DNA from: Palleronia sp. THAF1
GTDB lineage: Bacteria > Pseudomonadota > Alphaproteobacteria > Rhodobacterales > Rhodobacteraceae
Reading direction: 5' to 3'
Assembly: GCF_009363795.1 (NCBI RefSeq)
Contig: NZ_CP045420.1
Coordinates: 973,001-1,037,000 of the forward strand
Length of the DNA stretch: 64,000 nucleotides
Position numbers and translations under genes: made by a program. The notes under the pieces were generated by a model, which saw nothing but the letters and a program-made list of their open reading frames with translations, had not been told where the DNA came from and did no database searches. This document shows positions 23,652 through 37,596 of the stretch, piece after piece (position 1 is the first letter of the stretch; each line of letters begins with the position of its first letter).

Positions 23652-24692
23652 TCAGTCTTCGATCACGCGCCAGTGCAGGGGCATACCGGGGTCGAAGACT
23701 GTGACCGGACCGTCATCCGTATCGATCTTGGCCGGGTAGGAGACGGGTTCACCTTTTCTTAGGGTGATCGTGTCATCGTTGGCCGGCAGGCGGTAGAAAG
23801 CGGGGCCATTCAGTGATGTGAAGTTCTCAAGACGGTCCAGCGCGCCATGCTGTTCAAAGACTTCTGTCAGGATCGACAGGGTGTTCGGCGCGGTGAAGCA
23901 GCCCGCGCAGCCGCAGGGTTGCAGCTTGGCGGTATCGGTGTGGGGCGCGCTATCGGTGCCAAGGAAAAAGGCCGTGTCCGTGCCGGTGGCGGCGGCGACC
24001 AGCGCGCGGCGGTGGGTCTCGCGTTTGGCAACGGGCAGGCAATAGTAATGGGGACGAATGCCGCCCGCGAGGATGTGGTTGCGATTGATGACAAGGTGAT
24101 GCGTGGTGATCGTCGCGGCAAGATCGGGCCCGCCTGCGCGCACGTAGTCCACGGCGTCCGACGTGGTGACATGCTCCATCACGACGCGCAGGCCGGGGAT
24201 GTCGCGGCGGATCGGGTCCAGCACGCGGTCGATGAACACGGCCTCTCGGTCGAAGATGTCGATATCGGGGTCGGTCACTTCACCGTGGACCAAAAGCGGC
24301 AAACCGATCTGGGCCATGTTCTCCAGCACGCGCTTCACCTTGGTGAAGTCTTTCACGCCGCTGGCCGAGTTGGTCGTCGCCCCGGCGGGATAGAGTTTGA
24401 CGGCGGTGATCAGCCCGATCTCGGCTGCGGCGCGCAGGTCGCCAACCTGCGTTTCCTCGGTCAGATAGAGCGTCATCAGCGGCTGAAACTTCGATCCGCG
24501 CGGCTTCGCGGACAGGATGCGGTCGCGGTAGTCGGCGGCATCTGCGCCGGTGACGACGGGCGGCACCAAGTTCGGCATGATGATCGCGCGGGCGAAGTGG
24601 CGCGTGGTTTCGGGCAGGACGGCGCGCATCATGGCGCCGTCGCGCAGGTGCAGGTGCCAATCGTCGGGGCGGCGTATCGTCAGTGTGTCCAT
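23652..24692 (-). CDS. pyrC: Dihydroorotase
   Basis: Zinc enzyme of pyrimidine synthesis that closes carbamoyl-aspartate to dihydroorotate; 346 residues, class II (E. coli PyrC-like). Metal and active-site motifs: [10 protein letters not shown] at the N-terminus, the carbamylated lysine in [25 protein letters not shown] and GTDSAPHT. The ATG at 24692 gives the normal PyrC N-terminus [13 protein letters not shown]; a much longer open frame to 25232 runs antisense through the next gene and is rejected. It is divergent from the glycosyltransferase gene at 24805, so the 112 bases between hold both promoters. Confidence 0.95.
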
Positions 24693-24804: not shown

Positions 24805-27030
24805 GTGCAGGTTCTGACGCAACGCATCGACAGCGCGGATGTCGGCCGGGGCCGTTGCCTTGCGGTTGTCCCACGGGGCGGCGACCGCGTGGCCTGCTTC
24901 TTCCCGTCGAGCTTTCCCGAGAACGCGATCACCAACGTGCCGGGCTTCGCGGTGGACTCCATCACCTCGATCGGTGGGGGTCTGATGGTGCAGGGCGACG
25001 CGGCGCGAGACGCTGGCGGACGCAGGCTGCCGTTGGCGGGCGATCCGGTTGCGCTGCCGGAAACTGCGCCGCAACTGGAGCTCTTCGCCGGTTTGAACAG
25101 CGCACTCGCCTTGCGGCAGGTGGAATCGCCGGAGACGGTGCGCGACTGGCTGCAATGGCACGCGACCCACCACGGATTGCAGGCCGCGCTGATCATCGAC
25201 CGCGGCGCGCAGGCGGCTGAAGCGCTGGCCAAGGCTTTGATGCAAACCCCTGTCGAGGGGATCGAGCGGGTCGTGATCGTCAGCTTCGATGTCCCCCTTG
25301 GCCGCGCGGATCAGGGGCCCGAACAGCATCCGTTCAATGCCCCCGACGCCCCCGGCAAAGACCGGATGGAGCCTCCGGCGCCCGACCCGGAACGCTCTGC
25401 CTTCGGCGAGATGATCCTGTATGAGCTGTGCCGCGCGCTGTATCTGGACCGTGCGGCGGGTGTCATGAACGTCGATCTGTCTGACCTGATCACCGACGGC
25501 GCGCCCACCGTGTTTGAACAGACCGCGCTGTCACCCGGCGGCCTGCTGCCCCTTATGGCCAAGCGGATCTATCCCTGGGGCGTCGATAGCGTCGACGGCA
25601 CAGGCTTTGCCGATCACGTCTGCGAGCGTTTCGACGGCAGCATGGCGCATCCCCGTTGGTGCATGATCCCCGACCGGATGCCGGATGGGGCCGTATGGCG
25701 CATGGTGCGGATCGGTGGCGCGCAACCGGCCGCGAAGGGCCGCGTCTACTGGCGCGCGATGGCGCTGCGCCACCCAACAGAGAAGATCTCCGAGATCGTG
25801 CCCAAGACCGCGCTGATTGAGGATGCGCGCCTGATCCGCACCATGGCCGCCAACTTCGGGCGCGAAGGCCAGCGCCCGCCGGTTGAGGAACTGAACCCGC
25901 AAGCGCATTCCGGAACGAACCGCACTTGCATCGTCACCACGATGAAGAACGAGGGGCCGTTCATCCTGGAATGGATCGCCTATCACCGCGCGATCGGCGT
26001 GCAGGATTTCTTGGTCTATACGAACGATTGCACCGACGGCACCGACACGATGCTCGATCTGATGCAGGACAAGGGCCTGCTGCAGCACCGGGACAATCCG
26101 TTCAAGGATAGCGGCCTGAAGCCTCAGCACGCGGCCCTGCAGGCGGCCGAGAACGAGCCGATGATCCAGGATGCGGATTGGGTCATCTGCATGGATGTGG
26201 ACGAGTTCATCAACATCCACACCGGCGACGGCACGCTGGCCGATCTTTACGCCGCCGTGCCCGACGCCAACATGATCTCGCTAACATGGCGCCTGTTCGG
26301 CAACGCGGATGTGGAAGAGTTCCGCGACGATTTCTTGCTGGACACCTATACCCTGTGCGCGCCGCAGCTGGCGCGCAAACCGCATCAGGCGTGGGGCTTT
26401 AAGACGCTCACGCGCAACACGGGCATCTTCAAGAAACTGGGCGTTCACCGCCCCAAGGGGCTGAAGCCCCAATTGGTCGATCACATCAACTGGGTGAACG
26501 GATCCGGCAAACCCATGCCAGAGACCGATTATCGCAACGCCTGGCGCTCTACGGTCGAGACCTATGGCTACGATCTGGTCATGCTGAACCACTACGCCCT
26601 GCGCTCTGCCGAAAGCTTTCTTGTGAAGCGGGACCGGGGCCGAGTGAACCACGTGGATCGCGATCAGGGCCTGAACTACTGGTTCCGCATGAACCATAAT
26701 GCGGAAGAGGATCGCTCTATCCAGCGGATGATCCCCGCGTTGCGCGCGGAATACGACCGCCTGCTGTCGGACCCCGAGATTGCCGCTCAGCACGCGAAAT
26801 GCGTCGCCGCCCACCGCGCCAAGATCGACGAGCTGCGTGCCACCGAGAAATACAAGGCCTTCTACGCCGAGATCACCGGCGACCGCCTGCGCAAGCTCAG
26901 CCGGATGCTTGAGCACTTTGGGTCGAACGTCTTCATGGCCGGCCCCGACGTGATCCCCGACGAGGTGATGAACTACGCCGGTCGCCCCGACTATTTCTTT
27001 ACCGTTCCGGACGAAGAGGTTCCGGGTTAG
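24805..27030 (+). CDS. Two-domain family-2 glycosyltransferase (PF13704-like), first gene of glycan cluster
   Basis: 741 residues from a GTG start at 24805, chosen because GGGAGAG ends 4 bases upstream; the frame running further upstream overlaps pyrC antisense. The C-terminal half (from residue 374, [16 protein letters not shown]) is a clear glycosyltransferase of the Glyco_tranf_2_4 type, with [14 protein letters not shown] and the metal-binding MDVDEF at D464/D466. The N-terminal part (residues about 112-330) seems to be a second copy with eroded motifs: [14 protein letters not shown] resembles [13 protein letters not shown], and [10 protein letters not shown] takes the DxD place. Sugar donor and acceptor are unknown. 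It opens the plus-strand run of glycan genes. Confidence 0.85.
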
Positions 27031-27095
27031 TACAATAGCCACAATCTTGCCGGATTGTTGTGACATCAGGCCATAATCTGAACAGGACGAATGCC

Positions 27096-28664
27096 ATGCC
27101 CCTTCCTGAGATCGGCACGCTGTGGGTCGGCCCCGCGCTAAGCTGGCTGGAACAGCTTTGCCTGAAAAGTTTTGTGGACGCGGGGCATACCGTTCATCTG
27201 TTCGCCTATGACAAGATCGATGGCGTGCCCAATGGCGTGACCATGCGGGATGCGTCCGACATCATGTCCGCCGATCAGATCATGCGCCATGCACGCACCG
27301 GATCGCCCGCGTATCACGCCGATATCTTCCGGCTGAAGATGATGGCGCAGACCGATTTGATCTGGGCCGACACCGATGCGTATTGCGTGCAGCCGTGGGA
27401 TATCGATCCCGCCAAGCCGTTTTACGGTTGGATTTCCGACGACGTGGAGCAGGTCAACAATGGCGTTCTTCGGCTTCCCAAAGACAGCCGGACCTTGGAT
27501 TTGATGACCGAATTCGCCTCTGATCCCTATCCAATCCCGCCGTGGTTGAACGGAAAGCGCCAGGCCGACCTGCGCGCCGCGAAAGAGGCTGGGCAGGGCG
27601 TGCATGTGACTGAACTGCCGTGGGGCGTGCTGGGTCCGGATCTTCTGACCCATATGCTCACCGAAACCGGAGAGATCGAACACGCGCAGCCCGGCCATGT
27701 CATCTATCCGATCCCGTTCAAGGACACGGTGATGCTGTTCCAGCCGAAACGCCATGCTGCCGCAGAAAAACTGATCAAACCCGACACCCTGTCGATCCAC
27801 CTGTGGGGGCGGCGCTTCCGCAATTCCGCGGCCAAGCGGGGCGGCGTTCCCGATCCGGCAAGCTACGTCGGTACGTTGTGCGTGCGGCACGGGATCGACC
27901 CCGAGCAAACGAGGCACCTCATGAAGCTGAAACCGAATGCGTCCAGTTCCATTACCTCCCTGCCGTCCGACATCGACACATCGATGTTCAGCGATGTGGA
28001 TGTTGCGAACCTGATCCTGCAGCGTTCGGAAGTGGTCGCCTCGCGAGAAGCGATCCTAGCGTGGGAAGCGGGTGACGATGCACCTTTGCTGAACCTCGCG
28101 CAGACTGCGCGTGATGCCGTTCTGACCGGTGCGCTTGAGCGGTTGCGGTCGCGGTGTGATGTGTTCGCGCCCAGCGTCGATGCGCAGAAGCCCAAACGCA
28201 TCGCGGATATCGGGTGTGGCTACGCCATGGCGTCGCTGGTTCTGTATCACCGCTATCAGTGCGACGTGGTACTGATCGATATCGAGCAAGCGCCGAACCG
28301 CCATTTCGGCTTTCAAGACACCGGGGCGGCTTACGCCGATCTCTCCACGGCCCGCGCCTTCCTAGAGGCCAACGGAGTGCCATCGGACAAGATCAAGACC
28401 GTCAATCCGCTTAAGCAACCCATCGCAGACGCGGGCACCGTTGATCTGGCGTTTTCGTTGATTTCTTGTGGCTTCCACTATCCGGCTGAGACTTACGCCG
28501 ATTTCTATCGTGAGCAAGTGACGCCTGAAGGGCAGATCGTGCTGGACATCCGCAAGGGCTCTGGCGGCATTCCGGCCATGAAGAAATTCGGGGCATTGAC
28601 CGTTCTTGATCAGGAAAAGGGCCTATCGACGATCCTTGTTCAAAAGCAGCCAGAAAACGCATGA
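27096..28664 (+). CDS. Glycosyltransferase-methyltransferase fusion protein
   Basis: 522 residues. The N-terminal half (1 to about 280) resembles sugar-nucleotide transferases of the GT32/capsular type: TLWVGPALSWLEQLCL, then DIFRLKMMAQTDLIWADTDAYC with the DxD pair D92/D94. The C-terminal half (about 365-522) is a class I methyltransferase with an intact SAM loop ADIGCGYA (residues 370-377) and acidic VVLIDIE. One protein could thus add and methylate a sugar; this is inference. Start at 27096, with AGGA upstream; an ATG at 27091 is out of frame. Its stop overlaps the next gene as ATGA. Confidence 0.82.
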   Translation: MPLPEIGTLWVGPALSWLEQLCLKSFVDAGHTVHLFAYDKIDGVPNGVTMRDASDIMSADQIMRHARTGSPAYHADIFRLKMMAQTDLIWADTDAYCVQPWDIDPAKPFYGWISDDVEQVNNGVLRLPKDSRTLDLMTEFASDPYPIPPWLNGKRQADLRAAKEAGQGVHVTELPWGVLGPDLLTHMLTETGEIEHAQPGHVIYPIPFKDTVMLFQPKRHAAAEKLIKPDTLSIHLWGRRFRNSAAKRGGVPDPASYVGTLCVRHGIDPEQTRHLMKLKPNASSSITSLPSDIDTSMFSDVDVANLILQRSEVVASREAILAWEAGDDAPLLNLAQTARDAVLTGALERLRSRCDVFAPSVDAQKPKRIADIGCGYAMASLVLYHRYQCDVVLIDIEQAPNRHFGFQDTGAAYADLSTARAFLEANGVPSDKIKTVNPLKQPIADAGTVDLAFSLISCGFHYPAETYADFYREQVTPEGQIVLDIRKGSGGIPAMKKFGALTVLDQEKGLSTILVQKQPENA

Positions 28665-30040
28665 CACTCGATCCCGCCGATATCCGCGCCATCATGGACG
28701 CCTTGGACCGCGACGATGTGGGCAAGGTCGCCGACATCAACGGCCAGGCGCCGGGGCTGATCGCGGCGCTGCAGAAGCGGTACGATTGCAAGGTCGACGT
28801 CTTCGGCCTTTGTGCCGACGGAGAGCGGGTCGTCGTGTCGGACGACGAGTTGGACGCTTACTGCATTGCCGTGGGGGCCGCCGGGGGCAACCCGGACCGC
28901 ATCAAGTCCGCGACGCCTGGCAAGGCGATCCGGCCTTACGACGTGATCGCCAACATCAATGGGTTCGGGTCGCGCCATAAGGTGAAGCACCTGAAACCGT
29001 TGATCGAAAACGGCTTCAACGGTCAGACGCGGCTGGTCACGGATATCAAGCAGGGCTCTGGCAGCTATCCCTTCTTCAAGGACTACGGCACAGCGAACAC
29101 GCTGATCGAGCCGACGAAGGCCGCGCCGGGTCGGGCCGTTGTATCGGCGATCCCGCCGAAGACAAGTGCGGGTGCATGGTCCGAGATCGCGAAGGGACTG
29201 GCGGGCGATAGCGGCTGGTTCCGTGATCTGGGCGAGCATTCCATGCTGTTCGAGGATCGCTCGGACACGCTGGTCGTCACCTTCGACAACCTTGATATCG
29301 CCATGGATAAGCGAGAGGATCGTCGCCCCTGGGGCTATGCGTTCATCGAAGCCCAGGGGTGGTCGATGCTGGGCGTCATGGCGTCCGGCTGGACGTGGTT
29401 TCGCGACCCTGCGGTGGACGCAGAATTTATCCGTCTGCGCGACGAAGGCTTCTTCGAGCGGTTCAGCCGCGTTGTCTTCTACGGCGCATCCATGGGCGGC
29501 TACGCGGCGGCAGCGTTCTCTGCCGCTTGTCCAGGGGCGACGGTCTTCGTGACCTCGCCGCAATCGACGCTCGACAAGTCCATCGTGCCTTGGGAAATGC
29601 GCTACAAAACCGCGTGGGACCGGGATTTTTCAGGACCCTTCGGCGACGCGTCACTGGCATCACAGTCAGCCTCGGCCGTTCACATCCTGTATGATCCCTA
29701 CGTCGCCCCCGACGCTGCCCACGCCGCGCGGTTCACGGGCGATAACGTCACGCATTGGCGCTGCCCATTGTTGGGGCATCGGCTGGGGTCCTCTTTGCAG
29801 CAGATGGGCGCTTTGAAAGAGATCACCGTCGCTGCCATCGAAGGGCGGCTGGACCGCGATCTGTTCTACACGACGCTTCGCAAGCGACGCGAGTTGCCGC
29901 GCTACCAGCGAGAGCTCGTGCACCACGCGCTTGACCGTGGTCACGATGCGCTGGCGCTGAAGGTCTGCAATTTTGTGCTGGCACGGCGCAAGGACAAGGC
30001 TCTGGCGGGTATCGTGAAGCAGCTGACCTCTGCAGCTTAG
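28661..30040 (+). CDS. Degenerate methyltransferase domain fused to alpha/beta-hydrolase-like domain
   Basis: 459 residues. Residues about 20-160 align by eye with the methyltransferase half of the preceding protein: RYDCKVDVFGL against RYQCDVVLIDI, and LVTDIKQGSGSYPFFKDYGT against LDIRKGSGGIPAMKKFGA. However, the SAM loop reads VADINGQA instead of ADIGCG, so cofactor binding is doubtful. The second half carries FYGASMGGYAAAAF, a nucleophile-elbow pattern with S277, as in alpha/beta hydrolases. A paralogue of this half is the next gene on the opposite strand. Similar Rhodobacterales proteins are often mislabelled as phosphosulfate reductases. Substrate unknown. Confidence 0.78.
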   Translation: MTLDPADIRAIMDALDRDDVGKVADINGQAPGLIAALQKRYDCKVDVFGLCADGERVVVSDDELDAYCIAVGAAGGNPDRIKSATPGKAIRPYDVIANINGFGSRHKVKHLKPLIENGFNGQTRLVTDIKQGSGSYPFFKDYGTANTLIEPTKAAPGRAVVSAIPPKTSAGAWSEIAKGLAGDSGWFRDLGEHSMLFEDRSDTLVVTFDNLDIAMDKREDRRPWGYAFIEAQGWSMLGVMASGWTWFRDPAVDAEFIRLRDEGFFERFSRVVFYGASMGGYAAAAFSAACPGATVFVTSPQSTLDKSIVPWEMRYKTAWDRDFSGPFGDASLASQSASAVHILYDPYVAPDAAHAARFTGDNVTHWRCPLLGHRLGSSLQQMGALKEITVAAIEGRLDRDLFYTTLRKRRELPRYQRELVHHALDRGHDALALKVCNFVLARRKDKALAGIVKQLTSAA

Positions 30041-30080
30041 CGTGGTGCTGAAACCTAAGCTGGACGACACGCTGACCGGG

Positions 30081-31061
30081 TCAGTCGTCCAGCCAATCTG
30101 GATACTCACCGCGCGCGTCCATCGCTTGAATGGCAGCGTTCAGGCGCTTGCGGAACATCGGCCCACCGCCGCGCTTCAAGCTGGCCTTGCAAGCCAAGGC
30201 AATCAGGCGCTGTCGATCCTGGGCGACAAGGCGGACAATCAGACGCCGCAGCCAGACCAGATCGCCGTGGCGTTTGCGCAGGGCCTTATGGGCGTCGGCG
30301 CGGCTCATTTCGCCGCTTCCAAGGCCGTCGATCAGCGGATGCAGCAGGTCCATCCGCTCTAGCACCAGCGCTAGCGATCCGCCCTCTGGATCCGCCATGT
30401 AAGGCATAGGGATCAAGGTGACGTTGGCGTTGCGGAATAAGGTGGCATGCATCGCGTCCATCGGCTGTTGGGGATCGAACAACACCATGACTTCTTCCGC
30501 GGCTTCGATCATCTCGGGCGCATAAGCGTAGCGTCCGCCGAACGCGATCCGGCGCGCGGACGGAAACCGCGTGTCCCAACCGGCGATGCGGGTTTCCATG
30601 GTGGCCTGTGGGGCCAGCGCCACCACACGCGCGCCCGGCGCTGTTACGGAATAGGCGGCCGCCGCGTATCCACCGGCTTCGGCGCCGTAGAATATCACGC
30701 GGTCGTATTCGTCGAAGAAGACGTCATCGGCCAGATCGTCGAAGAAGGCGAACACGGCGTTGCTGCGAAACCAGGTGGGGCGGGCGGCAGTGATGTGGAG
30801 GACGGACCAGTTCTTGTCTTCGGCAAGGTCCAGCGCCACCGGCAGACCGGATTCGCGTTTCAGCGTCACCTCGACCTCTTCAAAGGACACCATCAATGTC
30901 GCTCCGCGGGACACGAGCGTCGCGGTATGATCGGCGTCCAGCACCCGGTGGTAGCCACGATCGCCCGCTGCGGCCTGCAACTGCTCCAGCACGCCTGCGG
31001 CATCCACCGGACGAGCTTCTTCGATGTTTGCCACGTCATCTGCTGCCATGGTCTCGGTCAT
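30081..31061 (-). CDS. Alpha/beta-hydrolase-like protein lacking the serine nucleophile
   Basis: 326 residues, paralogous to the C-terminal half of the plus-strand protein that ends 40 bases away. FYGAEAGGYAAAAYSVTAPGA aligns with the neighbour's FYGASMGGYAAAAFSAACPGA. The nucleophile position is E128 here instead of serine, so normal hydrolase chemistry should be absent. The N-terminal 60 residues are acidic, and the C-terminus is basic and helical. The start at 31061 (MTETMAADD) is preferred over 31142, whose extension is Arg-rich noise. It is convergent with the preceding gene; role unknown, possibly a non-catalytic partner. Confidence 0.75.
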   Translation of the reverse strand: MTETMAADDVANIEEARPVDAAGVLEQLQAAAGDRGYHRVLDADHTATLVSRGATLMVSFEEVEVTLKRESGLPVALDLAEDKNWSVLHITAARPTWFRSNAVFAFFDDLADDVFFDEYDRVIFYGAEAGGYAAAAYSVTAPGARVVALAPQATMETRIAGWDTRFPSARRIAFGGRYAYAPEMIEAAEEVMVLFDPQQPMDAMHATLFRNANVTLIPMPYMADPEGGSLALVLERMDLLHPLIDGLGSGEMSRADAHKALRKRHGDLVWLRRLIVRLVAQDRQRLIALACKASLKRGGGPMFRKRLNAAIQAMDARGEYPDWLDD

Positions 31062-31247
31062 GTCTGCCCCTCTTGGCCGGAACCGGTATTCGGCCCCACA
31101 CGAAGACCGTCTTCGGTGATACCTAATGCCAACCCAAGGCAATTTTAAGGAAGGAAGGGGACGGTTGCTGGCCCGTGATGGGCATTCGCGCTTGCCGTGC
31201 GGGTCAGCGATGGCCTATGTCTGCTGCCGATCAATGATGGGACTGCC

Positions 31248-32183
31248 GTGCCGACTTCCGCCGACCCCCATGCCAATCAGCGCGTCTACAGCGACCCGGA
31301 AACGCATGTCGTCTTTCATCTGGGCGCGCATTGCACCGGCGAAGACAGCCTGATCTTCTCTCTCAAGCGCGACAAATCGTTGTTAGAGAAATACAACCTG
31401 GGCGTGCTGCGCCAGAAGTTCTTTACCGATATCCTTAGAGAATACACAACGGAATTGCTGCGCGGTCGCGCGGCGGACCTGTCCGAACAAGAGCATCTCT
31501 TCCAGTCCCTGATCGGCACGAACCTCGTCGACCGTCTGGTGCTGTCATACGACAGTTTTCTGTCCGGGCCACAGAGGGTTCTGGCCGCCGGCGGTCTGTA
31601 TGTGAACGCGGATCAAAAGGCGCGAGAGCTACGCAACTGCGTCCCGGACAATCCGGTGTCTTTCATGTTGGCGATCCGCAATCCGGCGACATTCCTGCCC
31701 GCCATGTTCGCGAAGGTCAGCGAAGCGCAGGACATCGAAGATTTCCTAGGCGCGATCGATCCGTTTTCGATCCGGTGGAGCCAGGTCATCGCGCAGATCC
31801 GCGAAGGCGCGCCGGATGCGCCGATCACCGTTTGGTGCAACGAGGACACGCCTTTCGTTTGGGGCAAGGTCCTGCGCAGCGGCTTCGGGATCGCCGGTGA
31901 AGAGATGCTCGACGGCCAATTCGATATCGCGAAAGACATCATGACGGAACAGGGTCGGGCGGCGTTCGAATCCTACGTCGCTGTAAAACCGCCCCGCTCG
32001 GACGCGCAAGCGGCGTCGATCATCGAACTGTTCTTGGAGCGGTTCGCCGATCCCGAGCAGCTGATCGAGGACGATAGCCTGCCCGGCTATGCGCCCGAAG
32101 ACCTGACCGCCATGACCCGTCTGTATGAAGAGGATATCGCGCGCATCGCCGCCATGCCGGGCGTCACACTGCTGTCGCCATGA
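31248..32183 (+). CDS. Sulfotransferase-like protein of the glycan cluster
   Basis: About 311 residues. Near the N-terminus VVFHLGAHCTGED (residues 21-33) resembles the phosphosulfate-binding strand-loop of sulfotransferases (HxGxxxTG), and FMLAIRNPATFLPAMF resembles the second conserved region (RNP...). The match is by eye and moderate. The GTG at 31248 is the likeliest start; an earlier one at 31197 is possible, and no strong ribosome-binding site supports either. The stop overlaps the following glycosyltransferase as ATGA (32180-32183), so they are coupled. Sulfation of a surface sugar is the inferred role. Confidence 0.68.
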   Translation: MPTSADPHANQRVYSDPETHVVFHLGAHCTGEDSLIFSLKRDKSLLEKYNLGVLRQKFFTDILREYTTELLRGRAADLSEQEHLFQSLIGTNLVDRLVLSYDSFLSGPQRVLAAGGLYVNADQKARELRNCVPDNPVSFMLAIRNPATFLPAMFAKVSEAQDIEDFLGAIDPFSIRWSQVIAQIREGAPDAPITVWCNEDTPFVWGKVLRSGFGIAGEEMLDGQFDIAKDIMTEQGRAAFESYVAVKPPRSDAQAASIIELFLERFADPEQLIEDDSLPGYAPEDLTAMTRLYEEDIARIAAMPGVTLLSP

Positions 32184-33202
32184 GGGTACTGGCGATCTCC
32201 AGCTTGCGGGACGAGGGGCTGAACCTGCTGCACTGGATCGCCCACCACCGGGCGGCGGGGGTGACGGACTGGCTGCTCTTCACCAACGACTGCGCGGATG
32301 GCACTGATACGATGCTCGATTTGTTGCAGGCGGCCGGGATCGTCACGCATGTGCGCAACGCCGTGCCGGAAGGGCGCACGCCGCAATGGTCCGCCTTGCG
32401 ACAGGCGCGCGATCAGCCAGCCTATGGCCGCGCGGATTGGGCGATGGTCATCGATTGCGACGAATACGTGAACCTGCGCCCATCGGTGCCGACGATCCCG
32501 GCGCTGATCGACCGCGCGGGCGCCGATGCCATCGTTCTTCCGTGGCGACTGTTCGGTCACAACGGCCACGCGCGCCGCCCCGAAACCCCGCCGACCGAGG
32601 CTTATACCCGTGCGATCCCGCCCGATGCGCTTTACCCGGCACTGTCGCGGTTCTTCAAGACGCTCTACCGGCAAGAGGCGTTCCGCGCCCCCGGCGTGCA
32701 CCGCCCAAAGGCGCGCAAGGACGCGGCGCCATCATGGGTTGACGGATCTGGCCAGCCGCTGGGAGAGGACTTCGCCCGCGCCAATCAGATCATGCTGTGG
32801 GGCCAGCCGCTGGCCACCGATCTGGTGCAACTCAACCACTACTCCGTCCGCTCGGCAGAGGACTTCGTGGCGAAGGTAGCGCGGGGGTTGCCCAACCACA
32901 CCGACAAGCCGATCGACTTGACATACTGGGTCGAACGCAACTTCAACGCCGTGCCCGACGACACCATCGCCCCCATGGCCGCCGCCACCGCGCGCGAGTT
33001 GGAGCACCTACGCAGCCTGCCCGGCGTGGCCGAGGCGGAAGCCGCCAGCCGCGGTTGGCACAGCGCGGGCTTCGATGCCGCGCTGCACGATCCCGCCATG
33101 GTCAAGCTGTTCGGGCGCCTGTTGCTGTCGGCGGGCAGCACCGCCCCCGACGCGCAGACCGCGATGACGCTGGTGCGCCTGTTCCAGCGCGCGGGCGTCT
33201 AG
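32180..33202 (+). CDS. Family-2 glycosyltransferase (PF13704-like)
   Basis: 340 residues, single domain, a clear paralogue of the C-terminal half of the 741-residue transferase: [35 protein letters not shown], and metal-binding VIDCDEY with D92/D94. Later shared blocks are LPWRLFGHNG, GVHRPKAR, WVDGSGQPL and QLNHYSVRSAEDF. Probably cytosolic and acting on a lipid- or protein-linked glycan; donor and acceptor unknown. It overlaps the sulfotransferase-like gene by 4 bases and closes the cluster, 68 bases before the MoxR gene. Confidence 0.85.
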   Translation: MRVLAISSLRDEGLNLLHWIAHHRAAGVTDWLLFTNDCADGTDTMLDLLQAAGIVTHVRNAVPEGRTPQWSALRQARDQPAYGRADWAMVIDCDEYVNLRPSVPTIPALIDRAGADAIVLPWRLFGHNGHARRPETPPTEAYTRAIPPDALYPALSRFFKTLYRQEAFRAPGVHRPKARKDAAPSWVDGSGQPLGEDFARANQIMLWGQPLATDLVQLNHYSVRSAEDFVAKVARGLPNHTDKPIDLTYWVERNFNAVPDDTIAPMAAATARELEHLRSLPGVAEAEAASRGWHSAGFDAALHDPAMVKLFGRLLLSAGSTAPDAQTAMTLVRLFQRAGV

Positions 33203-33270
33203 GACTTTTGCGCCATTGACCCTATGCCGGTCGGGTGCAGGTATCGCCAGGCAACCAGCAAGGACAGACC

Positions 33271-34182
33271 ATGGCCGACATGCCCGCTTCCATCGACGAT
33301 GTGCAGACCATGCTGCGCGATCAGGACTACGTTTGCGGGCGTCCGCTTGCGACCGTGGCCTATCTTGCGCTGACCCTGGGCCGCCCGTTGTTCCTTGAAG
33401 GCGAGGCGGGAACGGGAAAGACCGAAATCGCGAAGGCCATCGCCGCCGCGCTGGGCCGTAAGCTGATCCGCCTGCAATGCTACGAAGGGCTGGACGCCGC
33501 ATCCGCCGTCTACGAATGGAACTTCGCCGAGCAGATGATCGCGATTCGCTCGGCCGAAGCGACCGGCGGGGCCGACCGCGCGGCCCTGAAGACGGAGCTC
33601 TTCACCGAGGACTACCTGATCTCACGACCGCTTCTGGAAGCGATGCGTCCCCAGACCGGCGGCGCGCCCGTCCTCTTGATCGATGAGATCGACCGCACCG
33701 ACGCCCCGTTCGAGGCCTTCTTGCTGGAAGCCCTGTCGGACTTCGCCGTCACCATCCCGGAACTCGGCACGATCAAGGCGCCAGAGCCGCCCATCGTAAT
33801 CCTGACGTCGAACCGCACGCGCGAAGTCCACGACGCGCTCAAGCGCCGCTGCCTTTACCACTGGGTCGATTACCCGGCCTTCGAGCGTGAGATCGACATC
33901 CTGCAAGCCCGCGCGCCCGAAGCCTCTGCCGATCTGTCGCGGCAGGTGGTTGCTTTCGTTCAGAAACTGCGCGGGAAAGACCTTTTCAAGAAGCCCGGCG
34001 TGGCCGAGACCATCGACTGGGCGAAGTGCTTGCTGGCGCTCGACATGATGGAGCTTAGCCCGCAGGTGATCGCCGACACCCTCGGCGCGATCCTTAAATA
34101 CCAGGACGACATTCAACGCATGGAAGGCTCTGAAGCCAAGCGCCTGTTGGACGAGGTCAACGCGGAACTCAGCCCAGCATGA
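33271..34182 (+). CDS. MoxR-family AAA+ ATPase (CoxD-like)
   Basis: 303 residues. AAA+ ATPase with Walker A GEAGTGKTEIAKA near residue 52 and Walker B VLLIDEIDR near residue 132, then a sensor region ILTSNRTREVHDALKRRC. Paired with a VWA protein downstream, the MoxR/VWA pattern of cofactor-insertion chaperones; CoxD performs this for the copper-molybdenum site of CO dehydrogenase (family knowledge). The start at 33271 has AAGGA upstream; an earlier frame from 33235 is rejected. A repeat hairpin separates it from the VWA gene. Confidence 0.92.
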   Translation: MADMPASIDDVQTMLRDQDYVCGRPLATVAYLALTLGRPLFLEGEAGTGKTEIAKAIAAALGRKLIRLQCYEGLDAASAVYEWNFAEQMIAIRSAEATGGADRAALKTELFTEDYLISRPLLEAMRPQTGGAPVLLIDEIDRTDAPFEAFLLEALSDFAVTIPELGTIKAPEPPIVILTSNRTREVHDALKRRCLYHWVDYPAFEREIDILQARAPEASADLSRQVVAFVQKLRGKDLFKKPGVAETIDWAKCLLALDMMELSPQVIADTLGAILKYQDDIQRMEGSEAKRLLDEVNAELSPA

Positions 34183-34244: not shown

Positions 34245-35510
34245 ATGGCGAAATACACCGATCTCGACCTGCCGGAGCACCCGAAGCTCGCGCACAACAT
34301 CACGTGGTTCGCCCGTGCGTTGCGCACCGCTGGCCTGCCCATAGGTCCGGGCCGCGTGATCGATGCGATCCGCGCCGTGGAGACTGCAGGCTTCACCGAC
34401 AAGCGCGACTTCTACTGGGTTCTGCACGCCTGCTTCGTCACCAAACGCGACCAGCGCGAGACCTTCGATCAGGTGTTCCGCCTGTACTGGCGCGACCCGC
34501 GATACATGGAACAGATGATTTCCTTCATGTCGCCGATGGTGCGCGGCGTTGCCGAGGAACGGACCGCCAAGGCCGCCGAAAAACGCGCGGCAGAGGCGTT
34601 GCTGGAGGGTGCGCAGGAACCCGACCTGCCGCCCCCGCTGGAAGAAGAGCCGCAAGAGGACACCCTGATAGAGGTCGACGCCAGCCGCACCATGTCCGAC
34701 GAGGAACGCCTGCGGACACTGGATTTCGAGCAGATGTCGAACGCGGAAATGGCGCGCGCGAAGAAGATGATCGCGCGGCTGACCCTGCCGGTGCAGCCGT
34801 TGAAGTCCCGCCGCACCATCGCCGCGCCGCAGGGTCTGTCGCCCGATTGGCGGCGCACGATGCGCACGGCGATGCGGTCTGGGGGCGAACTCACCCGGTT
34901 TGAGCGTCGCACGCCCCGCATCCGCTGGCCCGCTCTGGTGGCGATCTGCGACATCTCTGGATCGATGTCGCATTACTCCCGCGCGGTGCTGCACTTCCTG
35001 CATGCAGTCTCGAACCAGAAGGGCGCGGGCTGGGCGGATGTGCACGCCTTCACCTTCGGAACGCGGCTGACCAATATCACCCGCCACCTACGCCAGCGCG
35101 ATGTGGATGCGGCCCTCGCCGCCGCCGGTGCGCAGGCGCAGGACTGGGAGGGCGGCACCCGGATCGGCCAGTGCCTGACAGAGTTCAACCGCGACTGGTC
35201 GCGTCGGGTCATGGGGCAGGGGGCCATCGTTCTTCTGATCACCGATGGCCTTGATCGGGGTGACCCGGATGAGCTGGAGCGCGCGATCACCCGCCTGCAG
35301 CTTACCGCGCGCCGCGTGATCTGGCTCAATCCGCTGTTGCGCTTCGATGGCTTCGCTCCAAAGGCCAAGGGCATCGCCACGATCCTGCGCCACGTGGACA
35401 GCTTTCGCGCCGGTCACGACATCGCATCGCTGGAAGGATTGGCCGCTGCGATCGCCAAACCCGACGACGTCGGCGAGAAAGCGCGCATGATGCGCCTTTT
35501 GGGCGTGTGA
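34245..35510 (+). CDS. VWA-domain protein, CoxE family
   Basis: 421 residues. Helical N-terminal half, charged linker near residues 120-150, and a C-terminal von Willebrand A domain. Its metal-dependent adhesion site reads CDISGSMSHYS (DxSxS), with VLLITDGLDRGDPDEL as the partner motif and the CoxE-type ending WLNPLLRFDGFAPKAKGI. CoxE works with the CoxD MoxR ATPase in maturing molybdenum hydroxylases. Because the structural coxSML genes are absent from the window, the client could also be xanthine dehydrogenase-like. An OmpA gene follows after 91 bases. Confidence 0.9.
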   Translation: MAKYTDLDLPEHPKLAHNITWFARALRTAGLPIGPGRVIDAIRAVETAGFTDKRDFYWVLHACFVTKRDQRETFDQVFRLYWRDPRYMEQMISFMSPMVRGVAEERTAKAAEKRAAEALLEGAQEPDLPPPLEEEPQEDTLIEVDASRTMSDEERLRTLDFEQMSNAEMARAKKMIARLTLPVQPLKSRRTIAAPQGLSPDWRRTMRTAMRSGGELTRFERRTPRIRWPALVAICDISGSMSHYSRAVLHFLHAVSNQKGAGWADVHAFTFGTRLTNITRHLRQRDVDAALAAAGAQAQDWEGGTRIGQCLTEFNRDWSRRVMGQGAIVLLITDGLDRGDPDELERAITRLQLTARRVIWLNPLLRFDGFAPKAKGIATILRHVDSFRAGHDIASLEGLAAAIAKPDDVGEKARMMRLLGV

Positions 35511-35601
35511 TATGCGATAACCACGCCGAAAAACGCCCTTGAAGGAACGTCCGCCGCGCTCAGCTGTTAGCAGGCAACCCAACTCCTCAAGGATGTTTTC
35601 C

Positions 35602-37596
35602 ATGTTGAAGTCTCTTAAGACAACCACCGCGCTCGTCGCTTCGTTGAACCTGATCGTGCCCTTCCCGGCGCTCGCTCAGGCGACCGACGCACAGTCCCGC
35701 GCCGTCGAGGCCTGCTCGGCCGATATCACCTCTGCCGAATGTCTGACCGCGACGCAGGATGCAGTATCCCAAGGCGTTGATCCGGAACAGCTGCAGGCGC
35801 AAATTCAGAACGGTCCCGAAGCGGAAGCGGAAGCCGAGGCTGGCTTAGAAGCCGAACCCTCCGAGGCACCTGCCGCGCCGGAAGCCCCCGAAGCCGCTGC
35901 CGAACCCGAAGCGCCCGCTGATGTCGGCACGGTGAATGAGGAAGCGCCTGCCGCCGAAGCGCCAGTGGAAGAGGCTCCCGCGGAAGAAGCACCCGCTATC
36001 GAAGCCCCTGCCGCTGAAGCCCCGGCTGAAGAGGCCGCGCCAGAGTCGACAACCGCCCCCGAGGCCGCGCCGGAAAGCACCGAACAGATGCCGTCCGAGG
36101 CTGACCTGCAGGAGCAGCTTGGTGCGGATACAGACGTGAACGCCGAAGCGGATGCAGCTGTCGAAGCGGAAACTGAAGTCGAAGCACAGACGGAGGCCGG
36201 CTCCGAAGCGGAAATGGAGACCGAGGCTCAAACCGAGACCGAAGCACCCTTGGAAGCAGAAGCTGAGGCCGAAGCTGAGACTGACGCCGAAACCGCGACG
36301 GACGACACCATGCCGTCTACGGACGATCTGGAGCAGCAACTCGGAGCCGCCGAAGCCGAGGCCGAAGGTCAGGCAAACGCCGACGTCGAAGCCGAAGGTG
36401 ACGCAACCGCCGATAGCGAGACGGTGACGGACATCGAGTCCGAGACGACTGCCGAAACCTCGACCGTCGCGCCCGAAGAGCAGACCATGACGGAAAGCGA
36501 GCAAGCCGCCGTTGAAGGCGCGGCCCCCGCCGCCGCTGCTGCGTCCGAAGATGCGGAGGCCGTCGAAAGCGAGACAACGACCATCACCGACACGCGCTCC
36601 AGCTCGGAAGATTTCGAGGAGTCGATCAACGCCCAGCCGGCCGATGCGACCGCTCAGGCCAACAACGATGACGATGACGATAACGACAACGAAGACGGCA
36701 TTTCCGGTCTGACCGATCTGGAAAAAGCGCTTGTCCTTGGTGCCGGTGCTCTCGGTGTTGGCATGCTGTTGCGCGGCAATCAGCAGGTCGTCGCATCCTC
36801 GAACGACCGTGTTGTCGTTTCGGGCAGCGACGGTGGGTATGAGTTGATCAAGGACGACAACTCGCTGCTGGCCCAACCCGGTGCGCAGGTTCAGAACCAG
36901 ACGTTCGACGACGGCTCCAGCCGTTCCACCGTGACGTATGAGGATGGCACCCAGATCGTCACCATCCGTGACAATCAACTGCGTGTCGTGCGCCGCGTGC
37001 GGATCTCGCCCAACGGTGAGCAAGTCGTGCTGATCGACGACCTGAACGAGAACATCCAGCCGGTGAACGTCCAGCAACTGCAGCAGACCACGCAGCAGTC
37101 GCAAACGGTCAACTTGGCCGATGAAGCCGCTTTGCGTCAGGCCTTGGCAACCGATCGGTCCTTTGATCGCGCCTACAGCTTGAGCCAAGTGCGCAACATC
37201 GCCGAGGTCCGCCAGCAGGTGCCCGCCGTCGATCTTGAATCGATCACCTTCGAAACAGGCTCTGCCGCCATCCGTCCCGAGCAGGCCGATGAGTTGCGCG
37301 GTCTGGGTCAGTACATTCGCGACAGCATCGCGGAAAACCCGCGTGCGATCTTCCTCGTGGAAGGTCACACCGATACCGTCGGCAACGGGGCCTACAACCT
37401 TGCGCTGTCCGACCGCCGCGCGGAGTCAGTGGCGCTGGCGCTGACGGAGTATTTCGACGTGCCAGCCTCGAACCTTGTGGTCCAAGGCTACGGCGAGCGC
37501 TTCCTGAAGGTCGCGCAGGAAGGCGACATCCGCGAGAACCGTCGCGCCACCGTGCGCAACGTGACCCCGCTTCTGCAGATTGCCGCTGCGAACTGA
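35602..37596 (+). CDS. Large acidic OmpA-family outer-membrane protein
   Basis: 664 residues. A signal peptide (MLKSLKTTTALVASLNLIVP, cut likely after ALA) is followed by a long Glu/Ala-rich low-complexity region (about 70-370). That region contains two similar blocks, MPSEADLQEQLGAD at residue 163 and MPSTDDLEQQLGAA at 237, then an aspartate/asparagine run and a short hydrophobic segment KALVLGAGALGVGMLL near 374-390. The C-terminal 115 residues are an OmpA domain with FETGSAAIRPEQ, VEGHTDTVGNG and LSDRRAESV, expected to bind peptidoglycan. AAGGA lies 8 bases upstream of the chosen start. It has its own terminator, so it is a separate transcription unit amid the maturation genes. Confidence 0.93.
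   Translation: MLKSLKTTTALVASLNLIVPFPALAQATDAQSRAVEACSADITSAECLTATQDAVSQGVDPEQLQAQIQNGPEAEAEAEAGLEAEPSEAPAAPEAPEAAAEPEAPADVGTVNEEAPAAEAPVEEAPAEEAPAIEAPAAEAPAEEAAPESTTAPEAAPESTEQMPSEADLQEQLGADTDVNAEADAAVEAETEVEAQTEAGSEAEMETEAQTETEAPLEAEAEAEAETDAETATDDTMPSTDDLEQQLGAAEAEAEGQANADVEAEGDATADSETVTDIESETTAETSTVAPEEQTMTESEQAAVEGAAPAAAAASEDAEAVESETTTITDTRSSSEDFEESINAQPADATAQANNDDDDDNDNEDGISGLTDLEKALVLGAGALGVGMLLRGNQQVVASSNDRVVVSGSDGGYELIKDDNSLLAQPGAQVQNQTFDDGSSRSTVTYEDGTQIVTIRDNQLRVVRRVRISPNGEQVVLIDDLNENIQPVNVQQLQQTTQQSQTVNLADEAALRQALATDRSFDRAYSLSQVRNIAEVRQQVPAVDLESITFETGSAAIRPEQADELRGLGQYIRDSIAENPRAIFLVEGHTDTVGNGAYNLALSDRRAESVALALTEYFDVPASNLVVQGYGERFLKVAQEGDIRENRRATVRNVTPLLQIAAAN

Follow-up and report, generated by a model that had tools for sequence, protein, structure and literature searches.

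A very likely variable glycan locus beside pyrC in Palleronia retains eroded copies of enzyme domains

Why would a bacterium keep, within one short locus, intact enzyme domains next to what look like broken copies of the same folds? The question is raised by a gene set of Palleronia sp. THAF1 (assembly GCF_009363795.1, contig NZ_CP045420.1), found in a stretch of 64,000 nucleotides (contig positions 973,001 to 1,037,000, forward strand) that we call the window and whose numbering is used throughout. Six genes, here named A to F, lie between pyrC and moxR-coxE. Our reading, to which we give a probability of about 0.5, is that one fixed site carries glycan-assembly sets of varying content, that A to F are the set found there in Palleronia, and that dead domains serve in it as binding or scaffold parts. 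This one set holds two eroded domains that are firmly established, one that is well supported and one that is possible, and the intact relatives of most of them adjoin. For comparison we used loci in which genes were assigned by tblastn-based calls, among them 23 named loci from Palleronia, Leisingera, Aliiroseovarius, Marinosulfonomonas, Amylibacter and other Rhodobacteraceae, with one labelled Nocardioides.

One pair is of hydrolase type and is formed by the C-terminal part of C and by D:

29135-30040, plus strand: C-terminal part of C, alpha/beta-hydrolase type, with S277 (29489), D345 (29693) and H373 (29777); from PF00756 below its cut-off and alignment.
30081-31061, minus strand: D, a pseudohydrolase with Ser replaced by Glu, His lost and Asp kept, member of one pseudohydrolase clade; from blastp, alignment and tree.

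By blastp, residues 159-459 of C share 33% identity with D over 296 columns (E value 7e-35), and the alpha/beta-hydrolase assignment of this part of C is supported by a hydrolase relative in locus L163 that passes Abhydrolase_6 in Pfam. We compared 83 distinct hydrolases, taken from the fetched loci and not from all genome matches, with translated matches below 200 residues, overlapping lower-scoring matches and identical or contained sequences excluded, and divided them into C-type and D-type by the better score with C or D. The Ser-Asp-His triad, with a GxSxG-type nucleophile, is kept in 44 of 44 C-type sequences. In the D-type, Ser and His are gone and Asp is kept in 39 of 39, the nucleophile position being Gly in 34, Glu in 4 and Asn in 1. 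In a tree computed with the active-site columns omitted (a short search with no bootstrap and no known root), the 39 D-type sequences fall on one side of a single branch with a support of 99 in the Shimodaira-Hasegawa-like approximate likelihood ratio test, and one change is needed. In the D-type, conservation reaches at least 85% in 72 columns, and the C-type shares 43 of these; residues R170, R171, R177 and D183 are conserved specifically in the D clade, together with D108 (39% in the C-type). The loss in all 39 sequences, the single branch and the clade's own conserved residues indicate that the pseudohydrolase family of which D is a member is a stable one. The original prediction had described a hydrolase with Ser followed by one with Glu in its place; this pair is confirmed, and D has lost its His as well. 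Two more divergent D relatives from the same genus (L156 and L157) lack the Ser by eye. A third hydrolase paralogue of the same genome lies outside the window (G000:C1:791029-791802, in L002) and has its Ser-Asp-His triad intact.

Most genomes with D yielded no other hydrolase of this kind, and D usually stands beside transferases rather than beside an intact hydrolase. In 50 of 100 genomes drawn from the family, C finds exactly one match at an E value of at most 1e-10, and in 46 of the 50 this match scores higher with D. The count rests on bit scores; residues were inspected in the fetched loci only. With D as the query, three of the 46 (G007, G032 and G085) show a second, very weak match.

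A second pair joins the C-terminal half of B to the N-terminal part of C:

27993-28664, plus strand: C-terminal half of B, residues 300-522, an S-adenosylmethionine (SAM) methyltransferase with motif I DIGCGY (28206-28223); from Pfam matches below cut-offs and the motif.
28661-29134, plus strand: N-terminal part of C, residues 1-158, an eroded methyltransferase-like domain; from blastp and profiles.

That the 522-residue protein carries an intact methyltransferase and the 459-residue protein an eroded one had been predicted, and three lines of evidence uphold it: blastp between residues 300-522 of B and residues 1-158 of C (E value 1e-4), profile-profile comparison (probability 99.35, E value 6e-21, 149 columns) and motif I. 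The C profile also recovers the B domain in its own genome (E value 3.8e-14). All 21 B domains examined and a free copy in L059 have motif I of Class I SAM methyltransferases (DxGxGx) in the form DIGCGY; none of 32 C-type domains (24 from C and 8 fused) has it, and the N-terminal part of C, having lost motif I, retains the C-terminal DIxKGSG motif common to the B domain. The profile sets omitted B proteins of at most 400 residues (1/22), C proteins of at most 440 (1/25), and E and F proteins of at most 250 (1/25 and 1/11). In eight loci (two of them named), the transferase domain of B, the eroded methyltransferase and the hydrolase form a single open frame, a fusion that suggests joint action. 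L060 and L062 have B without its methyltransferase, beside a C-type protein. In these ten loci the B methyltransferase is missing from its usual place; within the stretches examined, an intact B-type methyltransferase is found only in L059, and the eroded one stands alone in the other nine.

The remaining sugar-transferase domains comprise a further eroded candidate and three apparently intact glycosyltransferases (GTs):

24805-25899, plus strand: N-terminal half of A, residues 1-365, a beta-rich start and a GT-A-like domain whose DxD pair is lost; from fold model and alignment.
25921-27030, plus strand: C-terminal half of A, GT92/Glyco_tranf_2_4, with DVD intact at residues 464-466; from Pfam and 20 of 20 aligned rows.
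27096-27980, plus strand: N-terminal half of B, a GT32-like sugar transferase with DTD; from Pfam Gb3_synth below its cut-off.
32180-33202, plus strand: F, a stand-alone GT92/Glyco_tranf_2_4 glycosyltransferase with DCD intact; from Pfam.

Pfam places residues 373-741 of A and F in Glyco_tranf_2_4/GT92 (76.8 and 63.6 bits against a cut-off of 27.5), and the two share 39% identity; the N-terminal half of A gives no Pfam match above cut-off. Its lost DxD pair would lie at residues 224-226 (25474-25482); in the profile alignment, NVDLSD of this half falls under MDVDEF of the C-terminal half. The second Asp of the DxD is absent from 20 of 20 N-terminal halves and present in 20 of 20 C-terminal halves (20 of 35 A proteins were aligned, and the 6 of 35 with at most 700 residues were left out of the profile sets). 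In the fold model, the N-terminal half reaches block values of the predicted local distance difference test (pLDDT) mostly of 80-97. The best Protein Data Bank (PDB) matches of the whole A model in Foldseek are four chains of the GT92 enzyme GalS1 (E values 2e-8 to 7e-8), followed at low template-modelling (TM) scores by enzymes that carry two GT domains, among them chondroitin polymerase and LARGE1. Of the tandem GT in A that had been proposed, the intact C-terminal half stands; for the N-terminal half, weak by sequence, the predicted fold and the collinearity of the two halves make a GT identity well supported. A degenerate sulfotransferase was also considered for the N-terminal half and rejected, since profile probabilities are 0.1-0.6 and, by fold, the model matches GTs.

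In B, the residues D92 and D94 of the N-terminal half are invariant across 15 rows. Against PDB profiles this half gives a weak match (E value 0.006) to Subversion of eukaryotic traffic protein A. PDB sequence searches with C, D and A returned nothing useful.

Gene E may hold a fourth eroded domain, of sulfotransferase fold without its P-loop:

31197-32183, plus strand: E, possible sulfotransferase fold with the P-loop lost (31317-31352, HLGAHCTGEDSL); from a fold model.

The model has a pLDDT of 83, and its top seven PDB fold matches are sulfotransferases (best E value 7e-4). At the place of the P-loop, the window has HLGAHCTGEDSL and 14 of 19 aligned rows have GAPxTD; the 5'-phosphosulfate-binding motif of sulfotransferases, with Lys and Thr/Ser, is absent, there being no K[TS]G[TS] at this loop in any of the 19 rows. 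None of 17 E members has a sulfotransferase Pfam match (the E alignments took 19 and 17 of 25 E-type sequences). With the profile tests negative, it is the fold and the position of the loop that suggest a sulfotransferase.

The predicted frame of the locus, six large genes between pyrC and a MoxR ATPase gene, is borne out by the gene positions and by Pfam on the flanks, and both genes and flanks lie where they had been placed:

23652-24683, minus strand: pyrC, an Amidohydro_1 protein by Pfam, left border of the site.
33235-34182, plus strand: MoxR-type AAA ATPase, by Pfam, right border of the site.
34245-35510, plus strand: CoxE-like VWA protein, CoxE-type VWA by Pfam, which adjoins MoxR in relatives.

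The first of these, pyrC, is the dihydroorotase gene. The proteins measure 741 (A), 522 (B), 459 (C), 326 (D), 328 (E) and 340 (F) residues. The highest mean hydropathy over any 19-residue stretch in A to F is 1.24; lacking a membrane-like stretch, the proteins look cytosolic. The Pfam scan covered 35 window proteins (A to F and 29 others; 56 open frames were listed, small ones excluded), and no flippase, polymerase or polysaccharide exporter of a Wzx/Wzy or ATP-binding cassette (ABC)-dependent polysaccharide locus was found among the 35. The ABC-transporter gene of the window is adjoined by branched-chain amino-acid permease genes. Downstream of CoxE the window encodes an OmpA-domain protein (35539-37596), with a long Ala/Glu-rich stretch and then a C-terminal OmpA domain; an OmpA-domain protein follows CoxE likewise in L047 and L121.

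The gene set recurs elsewhere, a recurrence on which the original prediction had made its system depend. A stands before B and C on one strand in 20 of the 23 named loci (A is downstream and inverted in L049 and L051, and outside the examined stretch in L050), and E follows C in 22, L034 being the exception; Leisingera, Aliiroseovarius and Marinosulfonomonas also have the order A-B-C-E. F-like transferases occur in nine of the named loci, and D stands beside C in two, both from Palleronia. One locus (L041, JAHVJD010000004.1) is labelled Nocardioides marinus, yet its A-B-C-E locus is Leisingera-like, and the label or the assembly looks wrong. Elsewhere, a 1746-residue frame (L071:2526-7763, genome G064) joins three B-type GT matches, one GT92 match and one C-type hydrolase match.

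Within the genus, what lies between pyrC and moxR changes from genome to genome. In 14 genomes, pyrC was found in all and this MoxR in 10; full-length C is present in three (G000, G102 and G113). The two borders are 100-312 bases apart in four (G101, G104, G105 and G112), and three others (G066, G103 and G107) have a different sugar-gene set between them. These alternative inserts all hold an F relative, another GT92 protein and a GT32-like gene; a D relative adjoins pyrC in two of the three, and the one scanned with Pfam holds an FkbM methyltransferase. In G114 the gap between pyrC and moxR is of similar size, judged by coordinates only. G113 has no MoxR match and an OmpA-like gene after E, and in two genomes of the genus pyrC adjoins the OmpA-like gene, again with no MoxR match. 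The site is thus fixed and its content varies by presence and absence. A related cluster in G100 lies on a contig other than that of pyrC (L163:4371-14946) and holds an A-type GT, an intact-Ser hydrolase, a GT32-like gene, further hydrolase-like proteins and a sulfatase (PF00884); the sulfatase is a hint that the glycan may be sulfated.

Across the family draw, a C-family match at an E value of 1e-10 or better was found in 74 of 100 genomes (own genome included), and D as query likewise matches in 74 at 1e-5, both counts mixing C-type and D-type matches. In ten of the 74 genomes with a C-family match, the match extends into the methyltransferase-like part (in one, split over two matches). At 20 D-bearing loci, chosen from the D matches because they carry D, the family-wide arrangement is pyrC, then D, GTa, A', a sulfotransferase and GTb, then MoxR-CoxE. 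D lies at most 1.1 kb from pyrC in 17 of the 20 and 6-8 kb away in two, with no pyrC match in one; MoxR is also present in 12 of the stretches. Between the borders we counted GTa in 16 loci, A' in 12, the small sulfotransferase gene in 10 and GTb in 12. Genomes across Rhodobacteraceae use this site, and the window holds a variant of it from Palleronia. In a draw from the class, 6 of 289 genomes match the C profile at 1e-8, of which four belong to the same family and two, outside it, match weakly (E value about 1e-10). No relatives of the cluster were found in viral contigs.

The protein A' is a GT92 protein whose N-terminal half is unlike that of A, and the small sulfotransferase gene stands alongside in the 10 loci just counted; the one such sulfotransferase that was scanned barely reaches the Pfam cut-off. 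The N-terminal half of A' (L119:4751-7159, with relatives in L102-L118) spans about 430-520 residues, starts with HIGxxxxxxRLQ and is fused to the GT92 domain. From these first residues we had read it as a P-loop-less sulfotransferase, and profile tests did not confirm this. E compared with this half gives a suggestive probability of 17 and an E value of 0.0015.

Could the eroded copies simply be functionless duplicates in decay? They do change faster than their intact counterparts. In 45 Leisingera pairs, the median ratio of nonsynonymous to synonymous substitution rates (dN/dS) is 0.16 for the N-terminal half of A against 0.05 for its C-terminal half, and 0.21 for the N-terminal part of C against 0.12 for the B methyltransferase, that is, about 1.7 to 3 times faster; the C hydrolase stands at 0.06 and E at 0.11. 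Among Palleronia loci, moreover, D, E and the N-terminal half of A are the least conserved, at 0.49-0.53 amino-acid identity. Yet medians of 0.11-0.21 mean that the N-terminal half of A, the N-terminal part of C and E are clearly constrained, under purifying selection; D forms a single clade over many genomes with conserved residues of its own, and the eroded methyltransferase is retained where the intact one is missing. Decay is thereby largely refuted, and we regard it as very improbable.

If the copies are kept, each might be the obligate activator of its own paralogue (D for C, the N-terminal part of C for the B methyltransferase, the N-terminal half of A for its C-terminal half), as the original prediction of enzyme/pseudoenzyme complexes implies. 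All three pairs do lie within 9 kb in this genome, both halves are present in all 20 aligned A proteins, and D adjoins C in the three Palleronia carriers seen. Occurrence elsewhere does not follow suit: D is without C in many genomes (by bit score, 46 of the 50 with a single match), C is without an adjoining D in 21 of the 23 named loci, the eroded methyltransferase is without an intact one in 9 of 10 loci, and GT92 proteins without the N-terminal half of A (F, GTa, GTb) are common at the site. Of that prediction, the reality and the conservation of the eroded copies hold; the need of each dead copy for its own intact paralogue does not, on the occurrence of D and of the methyltransferase, and we consider obligate pairing rather unlikely. 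Slightly less so, though still doubtful, is that the eroded domains still catalyse, by a chemistry that has changed, with D acting through its kept Asp and new Arg or Asp residues and the N-terminal half of A as a metal-independent transferase. The conservation of R170, R171, R177, D183 and D108 beyond the C-type would fit, as would the triad-position Asp kept in 39 of 39 D-type sequences and D227 kept in 20 of 20 N-terminal halves of A; the mixture of Gly, Glu and Asn at the nucleophile position, however, is not one new nucleophile.

We therefore return to the reading of a variable glycan-assembly set with binding or scaffold parts, whose components differ in strength. That this is a variable glycan locus is very likely, and that the eroded domains are non-catalytic in their ancestral chemistry is quite likely too. 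For the product, a short, non-polymerised glycan made in the cytosol is an even bet, a proposal that follows from the lack of a membrane stretch in A to F and of a flippase, polymerase or exporter among the scanned proteins. A role of the eroded domains as scaffold or binding parts falls slightly short of even odds. The site with its variation, the synteny, the two paralogies (C with D, B with C), the residue losses, the purifying selection and the single D branch are direct results; the substrates, the order of steps and the acceptor we infer as follows. At the inner face of the membrane, the C-terminal half of A and F (GT92-type), with the GT32-like N-terminal half of B, would assemble a short sugar chain, whose acceptor would be a lipid carrier, the lipopolysaccharide core or a protein exported later. 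The B methyltransferase would methylate this chain, and the Ser-Asp-His hydrolase of C would act on an acyl group of the glycan, by removal or transfer; the product would be methylated and perhaps acylated. The N-terminal half of A, the N-terminal part of C, D and perhaps E would have lost their ancestral chemistry, their folds being kept to bind sugar, acceptor or a partner enzyme and so to hold the enzymes together. A bolder form would be a glycan machine to which each of four unrelated folds (GT-A, SAM methyltransferase, alpha/beta hydrolase and sulfotransferase) contributed a dead docking copy, with D, beside pyrC across the family, as the oldest constant component; this we can offer only as a speculative possibility, and an improbable one.

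A number of observations weigh against the reading. The two halves of A align collinearly by profile at only a weak E value of 0.01 and a probability of 4, so that profile-profile alignment, which upholds the hydrolase and methyltransferase paralogies, gives no decision for A. The GalS1 match to the A model has low TM-scores (0.28-0.29 by query, 0.46-0.50 by target), the C-terminal half of A is poorly modelled (block pLDDT 31-69 over residues 461-600), and, as Foldseek prints no residue ranges, it is from the location of the confident part of the model that we infer that the match covers the N-terminal half. For E, the fold matches to sulfotransferases have low TM-scores (0.25-0.41), with unrelated folds at ranks 8, 10 and 12, and in hhalign the E profile gives a probability of 0.3 with STi, a set of intact sulfotransferases, and of 5, non-collinear, with 18 Sulfotransfer_3-type proteins; in the same test as the latter, STi and those 18 proteins give 96. 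D is absent from the Leisingera loci, and its constraint is read from residue conservation; the three Palleronia pairs give dN/dS values of 0.14-0.40 for all domains (0.32 for D) with synonymous sites near saturation. The loss of catalytic residues is compatible with new chemistry, and the want of a flippase, polymerase or exporter among the scanned proteins leaves export unexplained.

What the locus offers in return is D, a clean clade of 39 sequences in which the same two catalytic residues were lost and the protein then retained. Relatives of these bacteria are held in culture collections, and a role of a dead hydrolase in glycan building is directly testable. In a common marine family, the site also marks variation, probably of the cell surface, which may bear on phage-host interactions. 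In open-licence papers we found nothing on this locus, nor a single dead-hydrolase clade tied to glycosyltransferases and further eroded folds in one set.

Its parts do have known counterparts. The C-terminal half of A and F resemble GT92/Glyco_tranf_2_4 enzymes by Pfam, and plant GalS1 (PDB 8d3t) is the best fold match of A; A differs in that it seemingly has two GT-A-like domains, the first without DxD, and is bacterial with no membrane stretch. Active and inactive homologues work together as an obligate pair in METTL3/METTL14 and in GtfA/GtfB-type systems, whereas the eroded copies of this locus often occur without an intact one. In EryCIII/EryCII, as reported in PMC3391682, a glycosyltransferase has an activating P450 homologue. 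That system likewise joins a glycosyltransferase to a partner of another enzyme fold; folds and pathway differ, and we draw an analogy only. Sulfotransferases (3rnl and the tyrosylprotein sulfotransferases) resemble E in its top seven fold matches; E differs in lacking the P-loop Lys and Thr/Ser, in its low TM-scores and in having no Pfam or profile match. O-antigen and capsule loci are surface-glycan islands that vary in content and keep a fixed place on the chromosome. Unlike in such islands, the present set yielded no polymerase, flippase or exporter; the site is like them in its fixed borders, its differing content and its presence and absence within a genus. By this comparison, the component families are already known ones, and the site appears to behave as known surface-glycan islands do.

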